Source of the DNA: a virus
Strand: one strand, 5' to 3'
Virus record (IMG/VR): IMGVR_UViG_3300028844_005445
Span: 1-64,000 of that record
Length of the DNA: 64,000 bases
Part shown: piece by piece, positions 2,951-56,289 of the stretch
How the letters are laid out: every line of letters starts with the position of its first letter
How positions within the stretch are numbered: position 1 is the first letter of the stretch
Notes under the pieces: generated by a model
Seen by the model: the letters and a program-made list of their open reading frames with translations, nothing else
Told to the model about the DNA's origin: nothing
Databases searched by the model: none
Program-made: the position numbers and the translations under genes

Positions 2951-3229
2951 ATGAAGAAGTCTCGCAAAGCAAAAGCATTTTATCAACTGTTCGACAAGAA
3001 CCAGAAGCCAGTCAACATCGACTTGAACAATTACAAAGTCGTTTGTACAGCAACTGGACAACGCAAACAGTTCTATCACAAGTACCTTCACAATCTGATT
3101 GTGGACAAATATCACAGCAACATTGATGTGTTCAGAAACACATATGTAATCAACAAATTGTATGCTCAGCTGGATCAATTGATTGCTGAGAAACAATCAC
3201 TAGAAACTCCACAACTCACAAACAAATAA
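2951..3229 (+). CDS. basic hypothetical protein, 92 aa
   Basis: A 92-residue, Lys/Gln-rich basic protein starting MKKSRKAKAFYQLFDKNQKP. Start chosen because it sits 5 nt after AAAGGAAAG and downstream of the -10 element; an upstream in-frame ATG (2876) overlaps the promoter. The composition suggests nucleic-acid binding, but no motif is recognised. It is the last gene of the early cluster and is followed by a strong intrinsic terminator. Confidence 0.65.
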   Translation: MKKSRKAKAFYQLFDKNQKPVNIDLNNYKVVCTATGQRKQFYHKYLHNLIVDKYHSNIDVFRNTYVINKLYAQLDQLIAEKQSLETPQLTNK

Positions 3230-3254
3230 CTTTCTTCCATAACTGATCCTAACC

Positions 3255-3294
3255 AGAGGCTGGTGAAATCGAAGTAGCCAGCCTCTCTTTTTTT
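3255..3294 (+). terminator. intrinsic terminator
   Basis: Perfect 9-bp stem AGAGGCTGG / CCAGCCTCT (3255-3263 with 3278-3286) followed by a run of seven T after one C. It closes the rightward early cluster. Confidence 0.85.
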
Positions 3295-3305
3295 AACTTT
3301 TATAG

Positions 3306-3334
3306 TCGACATTCACCACAACAGTTCGTACAAT
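3306..3334 (+). promoter_or_regulatory. sigma70-type promoter, leaderless
   Basis: -35 TCGACA (3306-3311), 17 bp, -10 TACAAT (3329-3334), 7 nt, ATG at 3342. Confidence 0.7.
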
Positions 3335-3341
3335 ATATATT

Positions 3342-3815
3342 ATGAAGACAATCACACTACTAGTTACGGCAATCGTTTTAGGATTGAGTGCGCATGCTGA
3401 TCAACAATTTGTTCCATCACATGCACTGGCAGCCAAGCTTCGATTTGAAGCATTAAGAGCAGGTGAGGATGCTAGTGAGTTCGACTACACTCGAGCTCAA
3501 GCTCCATTGACAGATGACACCAGAGCTGATCTGTATGCTGCTGAAGAGGCTCGTCGAAAGGCTCGTGTGGCTGAATTGTTAGGTGAGTATCAGAAGCAAT
3601 ATGAACAACATGTTGTGTTGAATGATCGTACTGAAGATGAACTGATCAATCTGATCAAGCAACTGGAACAAAAGATTGATGACCAACACAAACAAGCTGC
3701 AACTGAATCGTTGACTGATTCAACTTTGGCCAAAGCTGGCATCGGAGTTGGAGGATTGTTAGCAGGTTTGGCAGCAAGCGGTTTCATTTTCAGAACGCGC
3801 AAGTCGCTCAGCTAA
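3342..3815 (+). CDS. secreted, C-terminally anchored protein
   Basis: 157 residues. Residues 1-19 form a clear Sec signal peptide (MKTITLLVTAIVLGLSAHA, AHA cleavage site). The mature part is a charged Ala/Glu-rich helical, coiled-coil-like region (about 25-125), followed by a hydrophobic Gly/Ala segment (GIGVGGLLAGLAASGFIF, about 131-148) and a basic tail RTRKSLS, which together look like a C-terminal membrane anchor with the tail in the cytoplasm. It would therefore expose a helical domain in the periplasm. Role unknown; periplasmic or envelope modification of the infected cell is an inference. It is transcribed from its own leaderless promoter. Confidence 0.7.
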   Translation: MKTITLLVTAIVLGLSAHADQQFVPSHALAAKLRFEALRAGEDASEFDYTRAQAPLTDDTRADLYAAEEARRKARVAELLGEYQKQYEQHVVLNDRTEDELINLIKQLEQKIDDQHKQAATESLTDSTLAKAGIGVGGLLAGLAASGFIFRTRKSLS

Positions 3816-4010
3816 CAACACCGCTCTAGAGCCGACACTGGCTCAGAGACACGACCCTCTCTCAGACCACGGGTATCAAACTATGTGATATGAGCGGAGG
3901 GTTTGGTGTGTGCGAAAACGTGCATGGGAAAATTTTTTGCGCAATTTTTTTTGAGCTTTTGTATATAGCGTTTTGCCTCCCCTGTGACCTGAGCGTAGCG
4001 AATCTATCTG
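3816..4010. other. non-coding, structured spacer
   Basis: No credible ORF. It holds the palindrome GCTCTAGAGC (about 3822-3831), a long stem ACCCTC/GAGGGT (3854-3859 with 3897-3902) enclosing a small hairpin TATCA/TGATA, and then an AT tract around TTGCGCAA flanked by A and T runs (about 3930-3951) that could act as a terminator. The base composition is richer in G+C than its surroundings. It might be a terminator region or a small RNA; nothing decides this. Confidence 0.4.
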
Positions 4011-4039
4011 TTGCATTTCGGATCATTTGATGTTATAAT
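4011..4039 (+). promoter_or_regulatory. sigma70-type promoter, near-leaderless
   Basis: -35 TTGCAT (4011-4016), 17 bp, -10 TATAAT (4034-4039), 8 nt, ATG at 4048. Confidence 0.8.
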
Positions 4040-4047
4040 ATACACAT

Positions 4048-4413
4048 ATGCAGACTATCGACATCATTGGATACATCGCTGGATTCCTGGGTCTGATCGC
4101 GTGGATGCCACAGTTTCAGACCGTGTGGTTCAAACGATTACACCAGGGACTCGACTTGAGAACGTGCGGTTTTGTAGCCGCGGCCATATTGCTATGGAGT
4201 GTGTATGGATATCTGATCAACAGCTGGCCCGTGATGTGCAGCAACTGGATCAGTGGCATGATGGTGCTCAGCATCATATTCAGAGCGCGTCATCTGAGAC
4301 GGTCAGAACACAACAACGGACATGACACTCAAAAAATGGTGGAGAGCTACAACGGTTATGATCTCACCACCGAGGAACGTGATCAGTTGGATTTAAACGG
4401 AACGTTCAAATAA
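4048..4413 (+). CDS. SemiSWEET-like (PQ-loop) sugar transporter
   Basis: 121 residues. The first ~85 form one MtN3/PQ-loop triple-helix bundle: TM1 (IGYIAGFLGLIAWMPQF) ends in the hallmark Pro-Gln, followed by a basic loop (FKRLHQGLDL), TM2 with LWSVYGYLI, and TM3 containing the conserved Asn (CSNWISGMMVLSIIF). Length and order match bacterial SemiSWEETs (about 90 aa), which work as homodimers moving sugars across the inner membrane by facilitated diffusion. A polar 35-residue C-terminal tail is extra. PQ-loop relatives carry other small substrates, so the substrate is open. The next gene is a GT32 glycosyltransferase. The start is fixed by the -10 element 8 nt upstream. Confidence 0.8.
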   Translation: MQTIDIIGYIAGFLGLIAWMPQFQTVWFKRLHQGLDLRTCGFVAAAILLWSVYGYLINSWPVMCSNWISGMMVLSIIFRARHLRRSEHNNGHDTQKMVESYNGYDLTTEERDQLDLNGTFK

Positions 4414-4496
4414 CCGTGACAGGCGGCAGGCTTGATGTTGCTACGCAACGTTGCCGATGACCCGTCTTCTGATTATATAATAAACAGATAGATGTA

Positions 4497-5237
4497 ATGA
4501 AGATACCAAAAGTTATACATCAAACCTGGTACACATCAAAAGCTCATGATCAACTGGCCAGTAGAATTGAAGATACTAAAAAACAAAACCCCGGGTGGGA
4601 GTACAAGTTATGGAGCGATCGCGACATAATTGTATGGTTGAGAGACAACAATCTTCTAGAAGAACTGGACATGTTCGAAAGCATTCGCGTTGGACCAGCC
4701 AAGGCGGATTTGTTCAGAGTACTCCTGCTTTATCGGGAGGGTGGTTTTTATATGGATGTGGACAATTATTTAACTGAACCGATAGATGAGTTTTTGAATC
4801 CAGTAGCGGAATGCATGGTTGCTATGAACGGTCGTAAAGAGATAGATTTTTGTATATGTGCCGCGGTACCGGGGAATATTTACATAGAGAACACACTCAC
4901 CAGTATCACACAAAGACTAAGGGACCGGGTTGATGGTACTGCTTACCAGGTTACTGGGCCACCTAATTGGAGAAACACGAATTACAATAACAAGGAGAAC
5001 CATCCGCACCGGGAGTACAAAATACAAATAGTAGCTCAAGAAGCGCATAAAGACAAAGGCTGGGGTGATTATCCGCAAGACTTTGAGAAAACTCCTTCAA
5101 CGGATCATTGGTTACAACCAATAGGGTTCCATTACATAAAAGATCACATGCATTTGAACACACTTCCTAAGGACGTACCTATGGATAGACACAGATGGCA
5201 GTCCGCACGAGATGACAAAAGATCATTATATAAATAG
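4497..5237 (+). CDS. GT32-type glycosyltransferase (DXD family)
   Basis: 246 residues, a complete small Gly_transf_sug / OCH1-like glycosyltransferase. Visible hallmarks: N-terminal IPKVIHQTWYTS, then the donor-binding block AKADLFRVLLLYREGGFYMDVDNYL (about residues 73-97) with the DxD motif DVD that coordinates Mn and the nucleotide-sugar. It would transfer a hexose onto a glycan or lipid in the cytoplasm; acceptor and sugar cannot be read. A promoter-like TTGCCG...TATATAAT (about 4452-4482) precedes it, with the ATG about 15 nt downstream and no obvious ribosome-binding site. Its 3' end overlaps a late-type box TATAAATA (5229-5236). Confidence 0.85.
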   Translation: MKIPKVIHQTWYTSKAHDQLASRIEDTKKQNPGWEYKLWSDRDIIVWLRDNNLLEELDMFESIRVGPAKADLFRVLLLYREGGFYMDVDNYLTEPIDEFLNPVAECMVAMNGRKEIDFCICAAVPGNIYIENTLTSITQRLRDRVDGTAYQVTGPPNWRNTNYNNKENHPHREYKIQIVAQEAHKDKGWGDYPQDFEKTPSTDHWLQPIGFHYIKDHMHLNTLPKDVPMDRHRWQSARDDKRSLYK

Positions 5238-5246
5238 TGAACCTGG

Positions 5247-5254
5247 ACTAAATA
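5247..5254 (+). promoter_or_regulatory. late-type promoter box
   Basis: ACTAAATA followed 5 nt later by GTG at 5260; the same arrangement (ACTAAATA, 5 nt, GTG) occurs at 16279-16292. A consensus TATAAATA also lies at 5229-5236. Confidence 0.5.
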
Positions 5255-5259
5255 CTCAT

Positions 5260-5454
5260 GTGAATGAAAAACTAACCATAGGATTTTTCTTGTTAGGTTG
5301 TGTGATTGTCACTGCCGCCATCATGGGTGTGAACAGAATCGAGCGTCTGGAAGACATCATCCTCAAGCAACAGGACACGATCGAACAACAAGAAAAGGCG
5401 ATAGCCATGCAGCGGCTAGAATCTCAAATGCTGCGCATGGGATTCGGAAGATAG
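5260..5454 (+). CDS. small single-span membrane protein with coiled coil
   Basis: 64 residues from the GTG start. One transmembrane helix (LTIGFFLLGCVIVTAAIMGV, about 6-25) is followed by an amphipathic coiled-coil-like helix with Glu/Gln heptads (RLEDIILKQQDTIEQQEKAI). The GTG at 5260 is preferred because late-type boxes stand just upstream; an in-frame ATG at 5212 would overlap the GT32 gene and precede the late boxes. The topology (short N-terminus, TM, long cytoplasmic or periplasmic coiled coil) recalls small phage membrane proteins such as spanin-like or inhibition proteins, but there is no specific evidence. Confidence 0.55.
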   Translation: MNEKLTIGFFLLGCVIVTAAIMGVNRIERLEDIILKQQDTIEQQEKAIAMQRLESQMLRMGFGR

Positions 5455-5458
5455 TCTG

Positions 5459-5740
5459 ATGAAACGACTGGTCAAGTTGTTGAACCAGTTGAAAGGACTG
5501 GCCAAGCCACAGCAAGTTGTGGATGTCGACTACCTTGAGCACTTGAACGATGCTGTTGAACACTTACGAGACGATCGAGCAGAGTTGCTGAAGTGGATGG
5601 AACAGGAACATCAACGGGCATGTTTTTGTTGTCAGAAATACAGAAGTGAGGAGGATGTGAAATATTATGAGGATCGTCGCGACTTGATGAAGCGTTTGAA
5701 ACATTATCTTGAACTGTTGCTCACTCCGGACAAACTATAG
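5459..5740 (+). CDS. hypothetical helical protein, 93 aa
   Basis: 93 residues, charged and helical throughout, with a Cys cluster in the middle (RACFCCQKYRSEED). It begins 4 nt after the previous stop, so it is probably co-transcribed with 5260-5454. The C..CC arrangement is not a recognisable zinc finger because no second Cys/His pair is seen. Function unknown. Confidence 0.55.
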   Translation: MKRLVKLLNQLKGLAKPQQVVDVDYLEHLNDAVEHLRDDRAELLKWMEQEHQRACFCCQKYRSEEDVKYYEDRRDLMKRLKHYLELLLTPDKL

Positions 5741-5769
5741 TTGAAACTGCTGCGTATATTGACTATAAT
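5741..5769 (+). promoter_or_regulatory. sigma70-type promoter, leaderless
   Basis: -35 TTGAAA (5741-5746, immediately after the stop codon of the preceding gene), 17 bp, -10 TATAAT (5764-5769), 6 nt, ATG at 5776. One of the cleanest examples in the window. Confidence 0.85.
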
Positions 5770-5775
5770 ATACAC

Positions 5776-6087
5776 ATGAACTCTGAACAACATGAAGCTT
5801 ATGCTGTTGATTTGCTCAAATGTTACACACCTGACGTGTATGTGGGTCCGGACATACGGGACGAGAGCATGAGACAGATGGTCGATCCGGACCACGAAGG
5901 CATGGTTTACTTGGAACCGGTGGAAAACACCACCAGACGTGTGATCGTGAGCTTGCTCAAATCAGCAGACCATCTGACAAACATCAGCAAGGAGTTGATA
6001 CCGTGTTGTTTTGCCATTGGTAATTGCATCAGCAATCCGAAAACGCGACTGGTGGCGGTCAAATGGTACAATTTATCCTGTGAGTGA
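5776..6087 (+). CDS. hypothetical protein, 103 aa
   Basis: 103 residues (MNSEQHEAYAVDLLKCYTPD...). Acidic N-terminal half; the second half is more hydrophobic and contains four Cys (C...CC...C, final C in LSCE). No family recognised. Leaderless start 6 nt after TATAAT. Its last codons overlap the GTG of the next gene by 8 nt, suggesting coupled translation. Confidence 0.6.
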   Translation: MNSEQHEAYAVDLLKCYTPDVYVGPDIRDESMRQMVDPDHEGMVYLEPVENTTRRVIVSLLKSADHLTNISKELIPCCFAIGNCISNPKTRLVAVKWYNLSCE

Positions 6088-6391
6088 TACGTGGATAAAG
6101 CAGGCTAGTGTGAGTTACCAATCACAACGCCTAGAGGAGCTGTTAGGAGCAGAGGATCATCATTACAACGTGTGGCATGAACCAACAGGTGTGGTGTTGA
6201 TGTACCGGAAACCACCGGGCAAGGAGCTGGTGTACCGTGGTCAGCTAGGTGTAGGTCCCAATTTCAAAAAATATTATACACAGAACAAAATAGACAAGCT
6301 GGCACCATTCGTGAGCGAGTTGATCGAGAAGCGTCGTAACTACATGAAACCTAAAAAGAAAAAGAAGCGGCGTGTTAAAAGCGCCACATGA
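6080..6391 (+). CDS. hypothetical protein with Lys-rich tail
   Basis: 103 residues from GTG 6080 (SDTWIKQASVSYQSQRLEEL...). An open frame extends back to an ATG at 6011, but that would overlap the upstream gene by 77 nt, so the GTG overlapping its stop is preferred. The middle has beta-type hydrophobic stretches (YNVWHEPTGVVLMYRKPPGK); the C-terminus ends in a Lys/Arg block (KPKKKKKRRVK), consistent with binding nucleic acid. It ends inside the convergent gene 6375-6692 (17-nt overlap). Function unknown. Confidence 0.5.
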   Translation: MSDTWIKQASVSYQSQRLEELLGAEDHHYNVWHEPTGVVLMYRKPPGKELVYRGQLGVGPNFKKYYTQNKIDKLAPFVSELIEKRRNYMKPKKKKKRRVKSAT

Positions 6392-15599: not shown

Positions 15600-15630
15600 T
15601 CTTTGATCTAGTAGTAATAGTAATGTGTGA

Positions 15631-15659
15631 GCCCTGGTAGAAATACCAGGGCTTTTTTT
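15631..15659 (+). terminator. intrinsic terminator
   Basis: Perfect 9-bp stem GCCCTGGTA / TACCAGGGC with a GAAA tetraloop, followed by seven T. Closes the porin transcript. Confidence 0.95.
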
Positions 15660-15662
15660 GTA

Positions 15663-15670
15663 TATAAATA
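15663..15670 (+). promoter_or_regulatory. late promoter box
   Basis: TATAAATA directly after the terminator. The in-frame ATG at 15672 lies only 1 nt downstream and would be upstream of the likely transcription start, favouring ATG 15720 as the HNH start. Confidence 0.65.
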
Positions 15671-15719
15671 CATGAGTATTGGTTATGTTTGTGAACCTCG
15701 TGACAGTATAACATTGATA

Positions 15720-16283
15720 ATGTCCAAATTTTGGACTCCTATCGGGGTGACTACAGCTCAAGACAGTGTGAGAAAATTGGTCAGAGAGTCTGGAAAAAAA
15801 CGAGGTGATCAGTCCATGTTCGCGCTGGATAAACATTGCAACATAAAGGACTGGAGACAGTGGGTCGAATCGTCACATGATGAACTGTATGACAATCAAC
15901 CATACATGAGGTCCAAACATCATCGATTCCCAGTACCTACAATCATATTGACCACAACCAAATGGACATATAACTGCAAAAGAAAGCCTACATTACGGTA
16001 CATGTACAAGCGGTACCGCGGTGTTTGTCAAATCTGTGGAGAACATAAACCGTTGACTGACATGAGCGTTGAACATATTTTTCCTAAAAGTCTACACGGT
16101 ACTAACGATGATTACAACCTGACACTCACGTGTAAACCATGCAATCATACAAGAGGTAACATTTTTCCGTTTTTTTCGGAGAGTGGAGAACCTTTGGAAC
16201 CGTTACCTCAATTACCGTTTTTACATGTTTTTGGTAGTTATCGCGACGAGTGGAAGACGTATTTTGTGGCGAAACTAGACTAA
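15720..16283 (+). CDS. HNH endonuclease-like protein
   Basis: 187 residues from ATG 15720 (MSKFWTPIGVTTAQDSVRKL). The C-terminal half carries a zinc-type HNH: CQICGEHKPLTDMSVEHIFPKSLHG ... NLTLTCKPCNHTRGN (about residues 105-150), with the CxxC pair, the catalytic EHIFPKS His and the final N-x-x-R/N region, and the second CxxC (CKPC). HNH proteins of this type act in homing, restriction or packaging nicking; the N-terminal domain is unknown and no intron or split host gene is seen nearby, so it is a free-standing nuclease. A second possible start is 15672. A TATAAC stands 7 nt upstream of 15720. Confidence 0.8.
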   Translation: MSKFWTPIGVTTAQDSVRKLVRESGKKRGDQSMFALDKHCNIKDWRQWVESSHDELYDNQPYMRSKHHRFPVPTIILTTTKWTYNCKRKPTLRYMYKRYRGVCQICGEHKPLTDMSVEHIFPKSLHGTNDDYNLTLTCKPCNHTRGNIFPFFSESGEPLEPLPQLPFLHVFGSYRDEWKTYFVAKLD

Positions 16284-32446: not shown

Positions 32447-32812
32447 TCAAGATGATGATATCAACTGCTTATATTCGCGAATCTCTCTTGTAGACAGTTG
32501 CATGTTTTTAGCAATCAACTTTGAATCATCATCTTGTTCCTTTTCCGGTTTTACTTTTTTGATATAATTGATACGCTTGAACCGTTCACGGGGGATTATA
32601 TAATGTAAGAATTTGTAATGATCTGATTTGTTCTCAAAAACTTGATACATCGTGTTTGTTGTGGTATTTACAATTTGACATGTTTGTTTGTTCAACATGC
32701 TACACCATCTGTTTATGAGAAACGGTTGATAATCACTCTGTTGATCTAATGTCTTTAACTCATTATCTTTTTTTGTGAAGAGTATATTAGAGAGATAGTT
32801 AAATATGTTCAT
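32447..32812 (-). CDS. clamp loader small subunit (gp62-like)
   Basis: 121 residues. The block YQPFLINRWCSMLNKQTCQI followed by PRERFKRINYIKK and a C-terminal helix with STREIREYK resembles the phage clamp-loader A subunit (T4 gp62), where PF.INR..S and an R.RF..... motif recur. With gp44-type ATPase (not in this window) it would load the sliding clamp onto DNA. It is shorter than T4 gp62 (187 aa), as in several marine T4-like phages. Its ATG overlaps the galE stop (ATGA). Confidence 0.55.
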   Translation of the reverse strand: MNIFNYLSNILFTKKDNELKTLDQQSDYQPFLINRWCSMLNKQTCQIVNTTTNTMYQVFENKSDHYKFLHYIIPRERFKRINYIKKVKPEKEQDDDSKLIAKNMQLSTREIREYKQLISSS

Positions 32813-33807
32813 TTATTTTTTTGTTCCCAGCTCCAAGCATCTTTGAGCATAGTTTCTAAATTATGTACAGCTTTCCACCCTAATCGGTTCTGCGCATATG
32901 TAGGGTCATTAAAAATGACAGGTAAATCACCGGAGCGTTTAGGACCGTATACATGATTGAGCTTAACGTTGTTAACACTTTCAAACGTTTCAACTATTTC
33001 TTTTACTGAGTAACCCTGACCTGTTCCGATATTGATAGCATCTATTTTAAATGCTTCGCATTTAGTTACCGCCATGACATGAGCTTTAGCGAGATCAACA
33101 ACGTGTATATAATCCCTGATACACGTACCATCCGGGGTAGCATAATCATTACCATGTACTGTTAGTTGATCTCTTTTACCGATAGCTGTTTGTGTAATAT
33201 ATGGTATTAGATTGTCTGGTGTACCTAGTGGTAATTCACCAATACATCCAGTAGGGTGAGCTCCGGCGGGATTAAAATATCTTAATAACATAACACCACA
33301 TTCATGTTCTTTTGTAAAGTTTGTTATCATACTTTCACATACTTGTTTGGTATGACCGTATACACTCCCCGGTGTTTTGATTGGTTCTTGTTCTGTTACC
33401 GGAAGATTATCCGGGTCTCCATAAACTGTACAACTACTACTAAAAATGATTCGCGGTATGTTCCATTCTTTAATAAACTGTAACAATTTACATGTACCAG
33501 TGACATTATTATCATAATATGATAAGGGAAATTTTTCACTCTCACCAACACTTTTTTTAGCAGCAAAATGAATCACTGCATCTATTGTATCATATTTAAA
33601 GAGTTTAGATCTCAAATCAGAAAGATCTCTGATGTCAGCATTTTCAAAGTCCGGGCGAGTCCCAGTTATTTGCTGTATACCAGTCAGTACATCGGTATTA
33701 GCATTAGTACAGTTATCTACTATAACAACTTCATGACCAGTTTGTTGTAATTCAACAACTGTATGACTCCCTATAAAACCTAAACCACCTGTGACTAAGA
33801 TTTTCAC
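32809..33807 (-). CDS. galE: UDP-glucose 4-epimerase
   Basis: 332 residues, full length. N-terminal Rossmann NAD motif GGLGFIGSHTVVELQ (GxxGxxG), then HFAAKKSVGES, the SSSCTVYG serine, the YGHTKQ catalytic Tyr-x-x-x-Lys, and ACNP-type segment LRYFNPAGAHPTG. It interconverts UDP-glucose and UDP-galactose, supplying UDP-galactose for the glycosyltransferases downstream. The start overlaps the stop of the upstream DUF366-like gene by 4 nt. Confidence 0.92.
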   Translation of the reverse strand: MKILVTGGLGFIGSHTVVELQQTGHEVVIVDNCTNANTDVLTGIQQITGTRPDFENADIRDLSDLRSKLFKYDTIDAVIHFAAKKSVGESEKFPLSYYDNNVTGTCKLLQFIKEWNIPRIIFSSSCTVYGDPDNLPVTEQEPIKTPGSVYGHTKQVCESMITNFTKEHECGVMLLRYFNPAGAHPTGCIGELPLGTPDNLIPYITQTAIGKRDQLTVHGNDYATPDGTCIRDYIHVVDLAKAHVMAVTKCEAFKIDAINIGTGQGYSVKEIVETFESVNNVKLNHVYGPKRSGDLPVIFNDPTYAQNRLGWKAVHNLETMLKDAWSWEQKNK

Positions 33808-38415: not shown

Positions 38416-39042
38416 TTATTCTCCAAATTCATAACCAAAATACTTAATGTCCTTTACATACCTTTCCGCCACAATCTCGCGAGTTTCGTCATCGTAGTAT
38501 TCGGTGTAATGTTTGTGGTTTGATTGTTTTTTGTGTGGAAGTTGTTGTCGTGGAATTTTAATTTTGTCGCAGACGATATCGAAGTCTTGCTGTAGATTTT
38601 CAAATCGACCTATGAAATCAACACCATGTTTTATGAAATAAGATCCTGGAAGCAAATGATATTCAAAATTAGTATTTAAACAAAAATCTTGATCTACTAT
38701 ATTTTTAACATTTTCAAAAAGTTTGGAGTCGTTTATGAAATTACTAAATGTAATGTATCTCTCACTTAAATTAAAAAATTCATATGTAGATACAAGTCTA
38801 TCATATGGGTTCCTACAAAAAGTAAATTTAAAATAATCAATATGTTTATTTATGGAATCAAATAAATGTTCATTTCTTAAGTTTTTTGTATTTATATACC
38901 ATTGTTTATGGCGTTCATTTACTTTATATCCTGATATTATATCTGAAATATCAGATGCATAATTATACAGAGCTTGCTCTACTGAAGTTCCAGCACATTT
39001 AGGTAAGTGTATGAAAATAAATTTATGTTTATGACTTATCAT
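38416..39042 (-). CDS. sulfotransferase-like protein
   Basis: 208 residues. PAPS-binding 5'-phosphosulfate loop HLPKCAGTSVEQAL (about 12-25), 3'-phosphate motif FCRNPYDRLVSTYEFF (about 73-88), and the common C-terminus IPRQQLPHKKQSNHKHYTEY, then YDDETREIVAERYVKDIKYFGYEFGE. These are Sulfotransfer_2-type carbohydrate sulfotransferases transferring sulfate from PAPS to glycans. The last ~60 codons are very close, even in DNA, to those of 42064-42666 and 42679-43269, while the N-terminal parts differ. The 3' end of a further copy lies just upstream at 39046-39108. Confidence 0.8.
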   Translation of the reverse strand: MISHKHKFIFIHLPKCAGTSVEQALYNYASDISDIISGYKVNERHKQWYINTKNLRNEHLFDSINKHIDYFKFTFCRNPYDRLVSTYEFFNLSERYITFSNFINDSKLFENVKNIVDQDFCLNTNFEYHLLPGSYFIKHGVDFIGRFENLQQDFDIVCDKIKIPRQQLPHKKQSNHKHYTEYYDDETREIVAERYVKDIKYFGYEFGE

Positions 39043-42063: not shown

Positions 42064-42666
42064 TTATTCTCCAAATTCATAACCAAAGTACTCGATGTCT
42101 TTTGCGTATTTTTCCGCAACAATTTGTTTTGTTTCATCATCGTAGTATTCGGTGTAGTGTTTGTGTTTAGTTTTGTTCACATGAGGTAGTTGTTGAGGTG
42201 GGATTCCAATTTTATCACATATTTTGTTAAAGTCTTCTGTTAGATTCTCTATCTTACCGGTGAAATTAATATCTATATTTTTACCATCACTCGATAACCA
42301 GTGTGTACAAGGGTTGATTAACCCACTATTTAGAACAAAGCTTTTAAAATTTTTATCACAATTTTTCCCACTCTTTAACTTTGATCGAGCCTGGCGGCCA
42401 TATGGGGTGTCGTATTGAGCAGATTTTACAATATGTTTCCAAAATGATACAGCTCTAGACCAAGGGTTTCGACCAAAACCAAAACATTTATAGTCTTTTG
42501 TATAATCAAAATCTTTTAAAGCGGAGGCATATGTTTTATGATAATGGTATAGAGTTTCACCGTTAGACTTTATATCCGAAACCGGGTTCAATGCCGCTCT
42601 AACGCTTTCACTTCCGGTTTTTGGTACTGCTATGAAAATGTATTTGTATTTATGACTGATTCTCAT
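42064..42666 (-). CDS. sulfotransferase-like protein
   Basis: 200 residues. PSB loop AVPKTGSESVRAAL, 3'-phosphate motif FGRNPWSRAVSFWKHI, and the shared C-terminus IPPQQLPHVNKTKHKHYTEY then YDDETKQIVAEKYAKDIEYFGYEFGE. A likely PAPS-dependent glycan sulfotransferase. The C-terminal third is nearly identical at DNA level to that of 42679-43269 and close to 38416-39042, while the N-terminal two-thirds differ, suggesting domain-wise recombination between copies. Confidence 0.78.
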   Translation of the reverse strand: MRISHKYKYIFIAVPKTGSESVRAALNPVSDIKSNGETLYHYHKTYASALKDFDYTKDYKCFGFGRNPWSRAVSFWKHIVKSAQYDTPYGRQARSKLKSGKNCDKNFKSFVLNSGLINPCTHWLSSDGKNIDINFTGKIENLTEDFNKICDKIGIPPQQLPHVNKTKHKHYTEYYDDETKQIVAEKYAKDIEYFGYEFGE

Positions 42667-42678
42667 AGATGTTGTATG

Positions 42679-43269
42679 TTACTTTTCGAACGTATACCCG
42701 TACTGCTCAATGTCTTTTTTGTATTTTTTCGCGACTATTTCACGAGTTTCATCATCGTAGTATTCGGTGTAGTGTTTGTGCTTAGTTTTGTTCACATGGG
42801 GTAGTTGTTGAGGTGGGATTCCAATTCTATCACAGACCACATCGAAGTCCTCTTGTAAGTTTTCTAGCTTTAAAATAAAATCAACAATTTGGTTACCCTG
42901 TTTATCAAAATGATGGTCATAACAAGACCAATGATTCATATATTTGTTCCAGGTTTTAACAGCTTCTTTAAATGGAATATCTTCTAGTCTGTTTTGCTGT
43001 ATACCATATTTGTATATGGATACAACTCTAGACCATGGATTTCTAGCAACAGAAAATTTGAAATACTCATTCCAGTCCCAACCCTGAGCTTTAAAACATA
43101 TCTGAAGTTCATGAGCTGTGGCATGTGTATATGGTGGAAATTTTTTTTTGTCTTCTTCTGGACCACCTCCCTTGATGTTAGTATATCTATCTAACACACC
43201 TCTCAATGTTTCGCTTCCCGTTTTAGGTGGTGCGATATATAACCATTTATTTTTATGTGACATTCTCAT
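42679..43269 (-). CDS. sulfotransferase-like protein
   Basis: 196 residues. PSB loop APPKTGSETLRGVL, 3'-phosphate motif VARNPWSRVVSIYK, shared C-terminus IPPQQLPHVNKTKHKHYTEY then YDDETREIVAKKYKKDIEQYGYTFEK. Third intact member of the local sulfotransferase set. A TGTAAATA late-type box stands 6 nt upstream of the first ATG (the protein begins MRMSH, so the inner ATG is also possible). Confidence 0.78.
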   Translation of the reverse strand: MRMSHKNKWLYIAPPKTGSETLRGVLDRYTNIKGGGPEEDKKKFPPYTHATAHELQICFKAQGWDWNEYFKFSVARNPWSRVVSIYKYGIQQNRLEDIPFKEAVKTWNKYMNHWSCYDHHFDKQGNQIVDFILKLENLQEDFDVVCDRIGIPPQQLPHVNKTKHKHYTEYYDDETREIVAKKYKKDIEQYGYTFEK

Positions 43270-53180: not shown

Positions 53181-53306
53181 TCAACTGTCAGTTGTGAATA
53201 AAATCTTGACACCTTTGGGTATATGTTTTCGAATCCATGCGCGGAAAGCTAAGGTCGGTGGTAATTCTTTCACTTTTATTAACACACTTTTTTGTTCAGT
53301 TGTCAT
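53181..53306 (-). CDS. small basic protein, 41 aa
   Basis: 41 residues, MTTEQKSVLIKVKELPPTLA then FRAWIRKHIPKGVKILFTTDS. The ATG overlaps the last codons of the metallopeptidase gene and the stop lies in the -35 region of the next promoter, the same compact style as the early cluster. The start LIKVKELPPTLAFRAWI looks structured. No function assigned. Confidence 0.5.
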   Translation of the reverse strand: MTTEQKSVLIKVKELPPTLAFRAWIRKHIPKGVKILFTTDS

Positions 53307-54961: not shown

Positions 54962-55597
54962 TTAAAATAACCAGGTATTTTTTGTCCTTCCTTTGTATTT
55001 TGGATCAACCCACGAACCTTCTGTTTTCTGTTGACCGTATTTTTCTGGTGCCGGTTTGGTTGATTTTGTTGATTGTTTTGGTTGTGTGTCTGATTTAGAA
55101 ACTTCTTTAGTCACGGTTTTTGTTTGCTCAACCTGCCCAGATGTTGATTGAGTTTTTTGTTCAGGATATGACTCGTATATTGCTGAGTTATTCTCATGTT
55201 CAAACACTTCTACTCTGACACACCGGCACCTCAGTTTGGTCAACACTCCAGCAAAATTATCGGCCGCAGCATGACACCATTCAGCAAATTTTTCTATACC
55301 AACTCCGTCCATGATCTTGAGATCACACAACCCTAGCTTTCCTAGTTTGATAAATTCATCTAGATGTGGGTCGTGTTTCGATACACAGGTGGTATGGTCA
55401 AATTGATCTTGTAACAGTTGTTTGAGCTCTTTGAGACTTCCGAAGTCTACCACCCAATTATTTTCATCTAATTCGTTAGCTGCGAACCAAAATTTAGCGG
55501 TCAATCGATAACCATGTATGAATCTACAATGGCTTTTGGCTTTTGGTTGTCTGAACGCACAGCTACCCAGTTCTATAATCTTGGTACTATAATGCAT
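54962..55597 (-). CDS. queD: 6-carboxytetrahydropterin synthase-like (QueD)
   Basis: 211 residues. QueD/PTPS-fold enzyme acting on 7,8-dihydroneopterin triphosphate. Conserved blocks: CAFRQPKAKSHCRFIHGYRL, NNWVVDFGSLKELKQLL, QFDHTTCVSKHDP and VEVFEHENNSAIYE. The usual zinc-ligand triad (H in the first strand plus H-G-H) is altered: only the first His of HGY is kept and the early His is absent, as I recall for some phage QueD forms. A Pro/Lys/Thr-rich C-terminal extension (about 150-211) is not part of the fold. Start set by a strong leaderless promoter. Confidence 0.82.
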   Translation of the reverse strand: MHYSTKIIELGSCAFRQPKAKSHCRFIHGYRLTAKFWFAANELDENNWVVDFGSLKELKQLLQDQFDHTTCVSKHDPHLDEFIKLGKLGLCDLKIMDGVGIEKFAEWCHAAADNFAGVLTKLRCRCVRVEVFEHENNSAIYESYPEQKTQSTSGQVEQTKTVTKEVSKSDTQPKQSTKSTKPAPEKYGQQKTEGSWVDPKYKGRTKNTWLF

Positions 55598-55603
55598 ACA
55601 TAC

Positions 55604-55632
55604 ATTATAATATAGGTTGACATGAAAGTCAA
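55604..55632 (-). promoter_or_regulatory. sigma70-type promoter for queD-queE, leaderless
   Basis: Minus strand: -35 TTGACT (55627-55632), 17 bp, -10 TATAAT (55604-55609), 6 nt, ATG at 55597. The -35 lies in the 31-bp direct repeat that flanks the inserted sulfotransferase. Confidence 0.85.
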
Positions 55633-55651
55633 TTACCAGTCACAAGTTTTC
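55621..55651. repeat. 31-bp direct repeat, copy 1
   Basis: Identical to 56259-56289. It contains the queD -35 element and a copy of the last codons (KLVTGN plus stop) of the 56267-59242 gene. Confidence 0.95.
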
Positions 55652-56261
55652 ATAATCTTTCTTCAATACTCATATGTTTGAGTTTTTCATAAAAGATAAA
55701 ATCTTCTTTGTAAAAATTTTTTAAAAAATCTATAGATTCTATGCTTAATTTATCGTCTTTATGATGTGTACTATTTTTTTTATTTATTTTAGATAATTTA
55801 ATGTTATACTTGTTTATAAAATATTGGAGCTCAACATCAAAATTATCCATAATAATTACAAATTTAGGGTTATTTACCCATAGATTTTGCGGGGAATACG
55901 TCCATTTATATTTGTTCAGTTTAGTACCTATAAAATGACTTTTGTTTATTATTTCTGACATTAAATTATCATGATATGGGTGCTCAGGGTCTGACCAAAT
56001 TTGTAACCATTTTTCAGGAGTATCAATATTTTTTGAAATTAAATATTTTATTTGCGGTTCATGAGACCATTTTTGAATTGCATAATAAACACTAGACATA
56101 AACCTATCTATTGGGTTTCTTATAACAACTAATTGATTAGATAAGTTTTTGTTATATACATCAGTCTCGTGTCCGTTATATACTATTGTTCTACTATTAT
56201 TAGTAATTTCTTTGATACAAGTACCACCATTTTTTGGTATATGAATAAAGTTAATTATCAT
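55650..56261 (-). CDS. sulfotransferase-like protein, inserted gene
   Basis: 203 residues starting MIINFIHIPKNGGTCIKEIT. PSB loop HIPKNGGTCIKE, 3'-phosphate motif VVIRNPIDRFMSSVYYAI; no YTEYYDDE tail, so it is a distant member compared with the three in the 38-43 kb cassette. More AT-rich than its neighbours, and enclosed by a perfect 31-bp direct repeat, so it is almost certainly a recent insertion between the large virion gene and queD. Its ATG lies within the repeat copy. Confidence 0.75.
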   Translation of the reverse strand: MIINFIHIPKNGGTCIKEITNNSRTIVYNGHETDVYNKNLSNQLVVIRNPIDRFMSSVYYAIQKWSHEPQIKYLISKNIDTPEKWLQIWSDPEHPYHDNLMSEIINKSHFIGTKLNKYKWTYSPQNLWVNNPKFVIIMDNFDVELQYFINKYNIKLSKINKKNSTHHKDDKLSIESIDFLKNFYKEDFIFYEKLKHMSIEERL

Positions 56262-56289
56262 GAAAGTCAATTACCAGTCACAAGTTTTC
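56259..56289. repeat. 31-bp direct repeat, copy 2
   Basis: Identical to 55621-55651. This copy holds the real C-terminal codons of the 56267-59242 gene and supplies the ATG context of the inserted sulfotransferase. Confidence 0.95.

Follow-up and report, generated by a model that had tools for sequence, protein, structure and literature searches.

Phage morons resemble the locus reported here in that one foreign, compositionally odd gene lies between two intact neighbors that are adjacent in relatives. They differ in that the insert here has neither a promoter for a full-length transcript nor its own terminator, and is flanked by a long perfect target duplication. The locus had been called a duplication-type moron insertion in a preliminary description; the duplication and the extra foreign gene stand, but a moron in the strict sense, with promoter and terminator of its own, this is not. 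Insertion sequences and transposons are likewise framed by direct repeats of their target, which is single at the empty site, but 31 bp is longer than usual, the insert carries no transposase, and its ends match only as ATAAT/ATTAT.

Two systems described in T4-type phages are also comparable. The PeSL promoter/stem-loop cassettes shuffle genes in these phages (Arbiol 2010, Comeau 2014, as cited in PMC4503421), and, as at this locus, repeated promoter sequence borders the gained gene. They combine an early promoter with a stem-loop in many copies, whereas here there is half a promoter, no stem-loop, and two copies only, and the repeat is the target itself. Gene gain by illegitimate recombination has been suggested for the ORFanage locus of S-PM2, also a T4-type marine phage gaining genes by recombination without long homology, although that locus is a large block linked to mispackaging (PMC4503421), in contrast to the one gene and measurable target duplication seen here.

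Structure of the repeat-framed insert

The window is the whole 64,000-nucleotide stretch analyzed, part of a 68.7-kb metagenomic viral record. On its minus strand, a 991-aa gene is followed by one repeat copy, the inserted gene, a second copy, the queD promoter, and queD (Table 1). The two copies are identical at 31/31 positions and bound the AT-rich gene as first described; the repeat also holds both the end of the upstream gene and the −35 box of queD, and both neighbors are complete. A pair of identical 31-bp sequences is expected by chance about 4e-9 times in the record. The 22-base core of the repeat occurs only twice in the window with up to three mismatches allowed (0 expected from shuffled sequences), so the repeat is not found at other insertion points in the window, a check that the preliminary description had proposed. 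The other long repeats there are tandem or belong to paralogous genes. No stem-loop or other structure was found in the 31-bp repeat, and no inverted pair of at least 12 bp at the insert ends, the ATAAT/ATTAT match having been seen by eye.

Table 1. Coordinates of features at and around the insertion (window positions unless stated)
Feature	Position	Strand	Remarks
queD (PTPS family)	54962..55597	-	intact downstream neighbor
-10 box TATAAT, queD promoter	55604..55609	-	6 nt before queD ATG; outside the repeat
-35 box TTGACT, queD promoter	55627..55632	-	in the downstream copy; conserved at related queD loci
Downstream repeat copy	55621..55651	-	31 bp, GAAAACTTGTGACTGGTAATTGACTTTCATG; holds the functional -35 of queD
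Inserted gene, sulfotransferase-like	55650..56261	-	203 aa; motifs FIHIPKNGGT and RNPIDRFMS kept
Unique insert	55652..56258	-	607 bp, 24.4% GC; absent from G001
Upstream repeat copy	56259..56289	-	holds the final seven codons plus stop of the 991-aa gene, the inserted gene's ATG, and a relic -35 (56265-56270)
TGA stop of the 991-aa gene	56267..56269	-	within hexamer TTGACT
Upstream gene, 991 aa	56267..59242	-	intact; ends ...FDSIRKLVTGN-stop within the upstream copy
Sulfotransferase-like arrays	38416-39042, 42064-43269; G001 3111-6365 (L090); L097 917-4570		

The insert is the lowest-GC 607-bp stretch of the record (24%, compared with 39-42% in the neighbors), and its limits nearly coincide with the start and stop codons of the gene, extending from just after the ATG to the first base of the stop. 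The join at the start of the gene is CATG/ATAATTAAC, with the ATG (56259-56261) inside the upstream copy, and the join at its end is GATTAT/GAAAAC, where the stop codon (TGA, 55650-55652) takes the first two bases of the downstream copy. The predicted protein matches the sulfotransferase profile phrog_3347 (E 1.1e-6, profile search) and, below the Pfam cut-off, Sulfotransfer_2 (PF03567; E 0.023). The two motifs listed in Table 1 align with those of clear sulfotransferase members, and we take them to be the PAPS-binding motifs (5'-PSB and 3'-PB). A single-sequence fold of the protein reached a pLDDT of 42 and was not used. The nearest relatives found are just 24-30% identical over most of the protein, and no donor or close relative was found among viral contigs, genomes, phages, and plasmids.

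The inserted gene has no convincing promoter of its own, the relic −35 lacking a good −10, and a weak 9/12 promoter match would start a transcript inside the gene; no terminator-like site is present on its strand from 55.6 to 56.3 kb. Expression of the gene probably relies on read-through transcription and on translational reinitiation from the stop codon that lies 5 nt upstream.

The inserted gene is also unlike the other sulfotransferases of this phage, which have a conserved 3' end in common. In the window, G001, and L097, sulfotransferase-like genes form arrays with near-identical 3' ends (KHYTEYYDDETREIVAxRYAxDIExFGYEFG) and differing 5' parts, as though they had diversified through recombination at the common 3' ends.

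Empty sites in related phages

The state without the gene is seen in several relatives. In the related contig pair L002/L003, treated as one lineage pair, the flanks of the 991-aa gene and queD are joined by a single copy of the site, ...ATAAGAAAACTTGTAATCGGTAATTGACTTCTGTGTAAATTTATACTATAATGTATATATG, identical to the window repeat at 25/31 bases, and the same two flanks lie 638 bp further apart in the window. Protein identities to the window are 74% for the C-terminal 300 aa of the 991-aa gene and 72% for queD. The record containing L003 (G001, 61.6 kb) shows synteny over most of the window and has no copy of the inserted gene. In the more distant L008 (queD 55% identical), the upstream gene ends in NNLKKLMSGN-TGA at the same single junction, with the TGA inside TTGACT, and in L107, on a 222-kb contig, there is no sulfotransferase upstream of queD. 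The single 31-bp copy predicted for a relative without the gene is thus seen in L002/L003 and, by the same junction logic, in L008.

The preliminary description had named as contrary evidence a relative with the gene and no repeat, or one with the repeat twice and no gene. Neither was encountered, although the former comparison is empty, no second carrier of the gene having been found. A 97.6% identical relative (G003) stops short of the insertion site, and the viral collection yielded no further contigs with the site beyond the two empty relatives, noting that the nearest records to the window may be excluded from it; the inserted state has been seen in a single metagenome contig. Because the junction is empty in L002/L003, L008, and L107, presence of the gene is the derived state, a recent gain on the lineage of the window.

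The repeat copies themselves give an indication of age. G001 has one orthologous copy, which differs at 6/31 positions, and the flanks differ at 20-27% of bases. Under independent drift at that rate, the probability of zero differences between the two copies is about 0.001, which argues that the duplication is younger than the split from the G001 lineage, although gene conversion between the copies could make it seem younger than it is.

Origin of the duplication

We consider it likely, with a probability of roughly 0.7, that a foreign AT-rich gene was inserted once and recently at the junction of the 991-aa gene and queD, by non-homologous recombination that duplicated a 31-bp target. During recombination-dependent replication, a growing end would have switched at CATG from the phage template to the foreign gene, copying it from the ATG to roughly the stop, and then returned to the phage template at GAAAAC, 31 bp behind the point of exit, so that the stretch in between would have been replicated twice. 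Such an insertion would have been retained since the upstream stop lies inside the queD −35, with neither neighbor damaged and queD keeping its own promoter. We prefer a template switch with re-entry because the joins fall at the ATG and the TGA. Against it, no donor was found with which to compare the junctions for microhomology, and a staggered break that is filled in while capturing DNA yields the same product.

Nothing points to dedicated machinery. The insert holds only the sulfotransferase-like ORF, and no recombinase, transposase, or reverse transcriptase was found in it or in the flanking genes. Neither a tyrosine integrase nor a reverse transcriptase, the two types sought record-wide, was found in the 68.7-kb record, which is itself a fragment. 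In about 1.2 Mb of related phage loci (partly overlapping, with some contigs counted repeatedly, and with paralogs called by flank identity and by eye), no convincing non-paralogous gene-flanking repeat of 17-18 bp or more was found, most matches being either conserved ends shared by paralogous genes or repeats within tandem paralogs. These results fit a one-off non-homologous event.

The staggered break deserves consideration as an alternative in its own right, although we consider it rather unlikely. Nicks 31 nt apart, possibly the work of an HNH nickase of the homing type or of some other phage nuclease, followed by fill-in and capture of a fragment, would give exactly the observed 31-bp duplication, and the phage does encode an HNH endonuclease (15627-16283) that is itself missing from G001. 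However, a stagger of 31 nt is unusually long, the HNH gene is 40 kb away and outside the insert, and the searches turned up no other site duplicated in this way. Still less probable is a mobile cassette or circle carrying the gene and one copy of the site, integrating reversibly by a single crossover at the 31 bp. Perfect direct repeats of the target do frame the gene, and recombination between them would restore the exact empty junction of the relatives, but the repeat consists of the end of a phage gene and half a promoter, so that a free cassette must already derive from this very locus. Moreover, the repeat is absent elsewhere in the window, the partial record yields no tyrosine integrase, and sulfotransferases as repeat-framed cassettes are rejected, with 0/71 other candidate sulfotransferase ORFs framed by repeats longer than 15 bp.

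We regard it as improbable, to a slightly greater degree, that the gene and both repeats are ancestral and that the relatives lost the gene. Deletion between the repeats would yield the empty site of L002/L003, but every relative readable at the junction lacks the gene, the copies are identical even though the orthologous site has diverged, and the base composition of the insert is unlike that of the phage. A more far-reaching proposal is very improbable, namely that T4-type marine phages have an undescribed, recurrent pathway of gene capture that left the duplication as its footprint, pasting start-to-stop frames into junctions and duplicating the junction (through programmed template switching, for example, or through nicking with a long stagger by a phage nuclease). 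We give least credence to an assembly artifact in which the junctions were built from strain variants. The sequence is a metagenome contig and the inserted state occurs in no second record (the nearest records again possibly being excluded), but each junction would need separate support, the reading frame is unbroken, with its ATG in one copy and its stop finished by the other, and the empty state of the other contigs agrees with both flanks.

Whatever its route, the one-time insertion is an ordinary type of event with an unusually clear footprint, a one-off gene gain rather than a new mobile element. It offers a clean, recent, and polarized case of single-gene gain between neighbors that have common signals. 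With perfect repeats on either side, deletion should be able to reverse the insertion, and gain and loss of such a gene should be directly measurable.

Survival of both neighbors and nearby observations

The upstream TGA occupies bases 2-4 of the −35 hexamer (T-TGA-CT) of a queD promoter, TTGACT-17-TATAAT, that matches the consensus at 11/12 positions. A plain insertion at this overlap would alter the C terminus of the upstream protein, split the promoter, or part the promoter from queD, whereas both neighbors escape damage when the insertion duplicates at least the overlapping TTGA. Since the stop codon overlaps the −35, mainly duplication-type insertions would survive; the "saving" of both neighbors is therefore largely expected for any survivor under selection, and no special mechanism is needed. 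The case shows selection on a stop codon/−35 overlap filtering which insertions persist. The arrangement TTGAnn, 16-17 nt, TATAAT, 5-8 nt, ATG is kept in most related queD loci (49 distinct promoters), and the stop of the upstream ORF lies inside the −35 as TGA in 7/49 of these.

The short distance from the −10 to the ATG (5-8 nt) in the window (55604-55632) and related loci, with no ribosome-binding site, suggests that the queD mRNA may be leaderless. An SD-like motif precedes only 8/66 genes examined in the record.

Other single-gene indels of this phage group have short repeats or none, as microhomology-type joins would be expected to leave. The HNH indel, a free-standing endonuclease gene with weak likeness to the IscB HNH domain that is present in G003, has no repeat. 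A galE-like gene (32809-33807) is inserted where G003 and G001 have two genes with a GTGA overlap. Similarity between the starts of this gene and of the next one (GTGAA-ATCTT, compared with G003) is what a microhomology join would give. Conversely, G001 has a 225-aa gene between nrdA and nrdB (L090 16256-16933) that is absent from the window, with TCAATA (about 6 bp) at both borders.

The 991-aa protein, previously described as a virion gene, has no significant match in Pfam, PHROG, or NCBIfam. It is among several predicted proteins (genes at 53296, 56267, 60488, and 61066) that start with a similar MxxFKxxV.E-like stretch, and these N termini recall the capsid-targeting sequences of T4.
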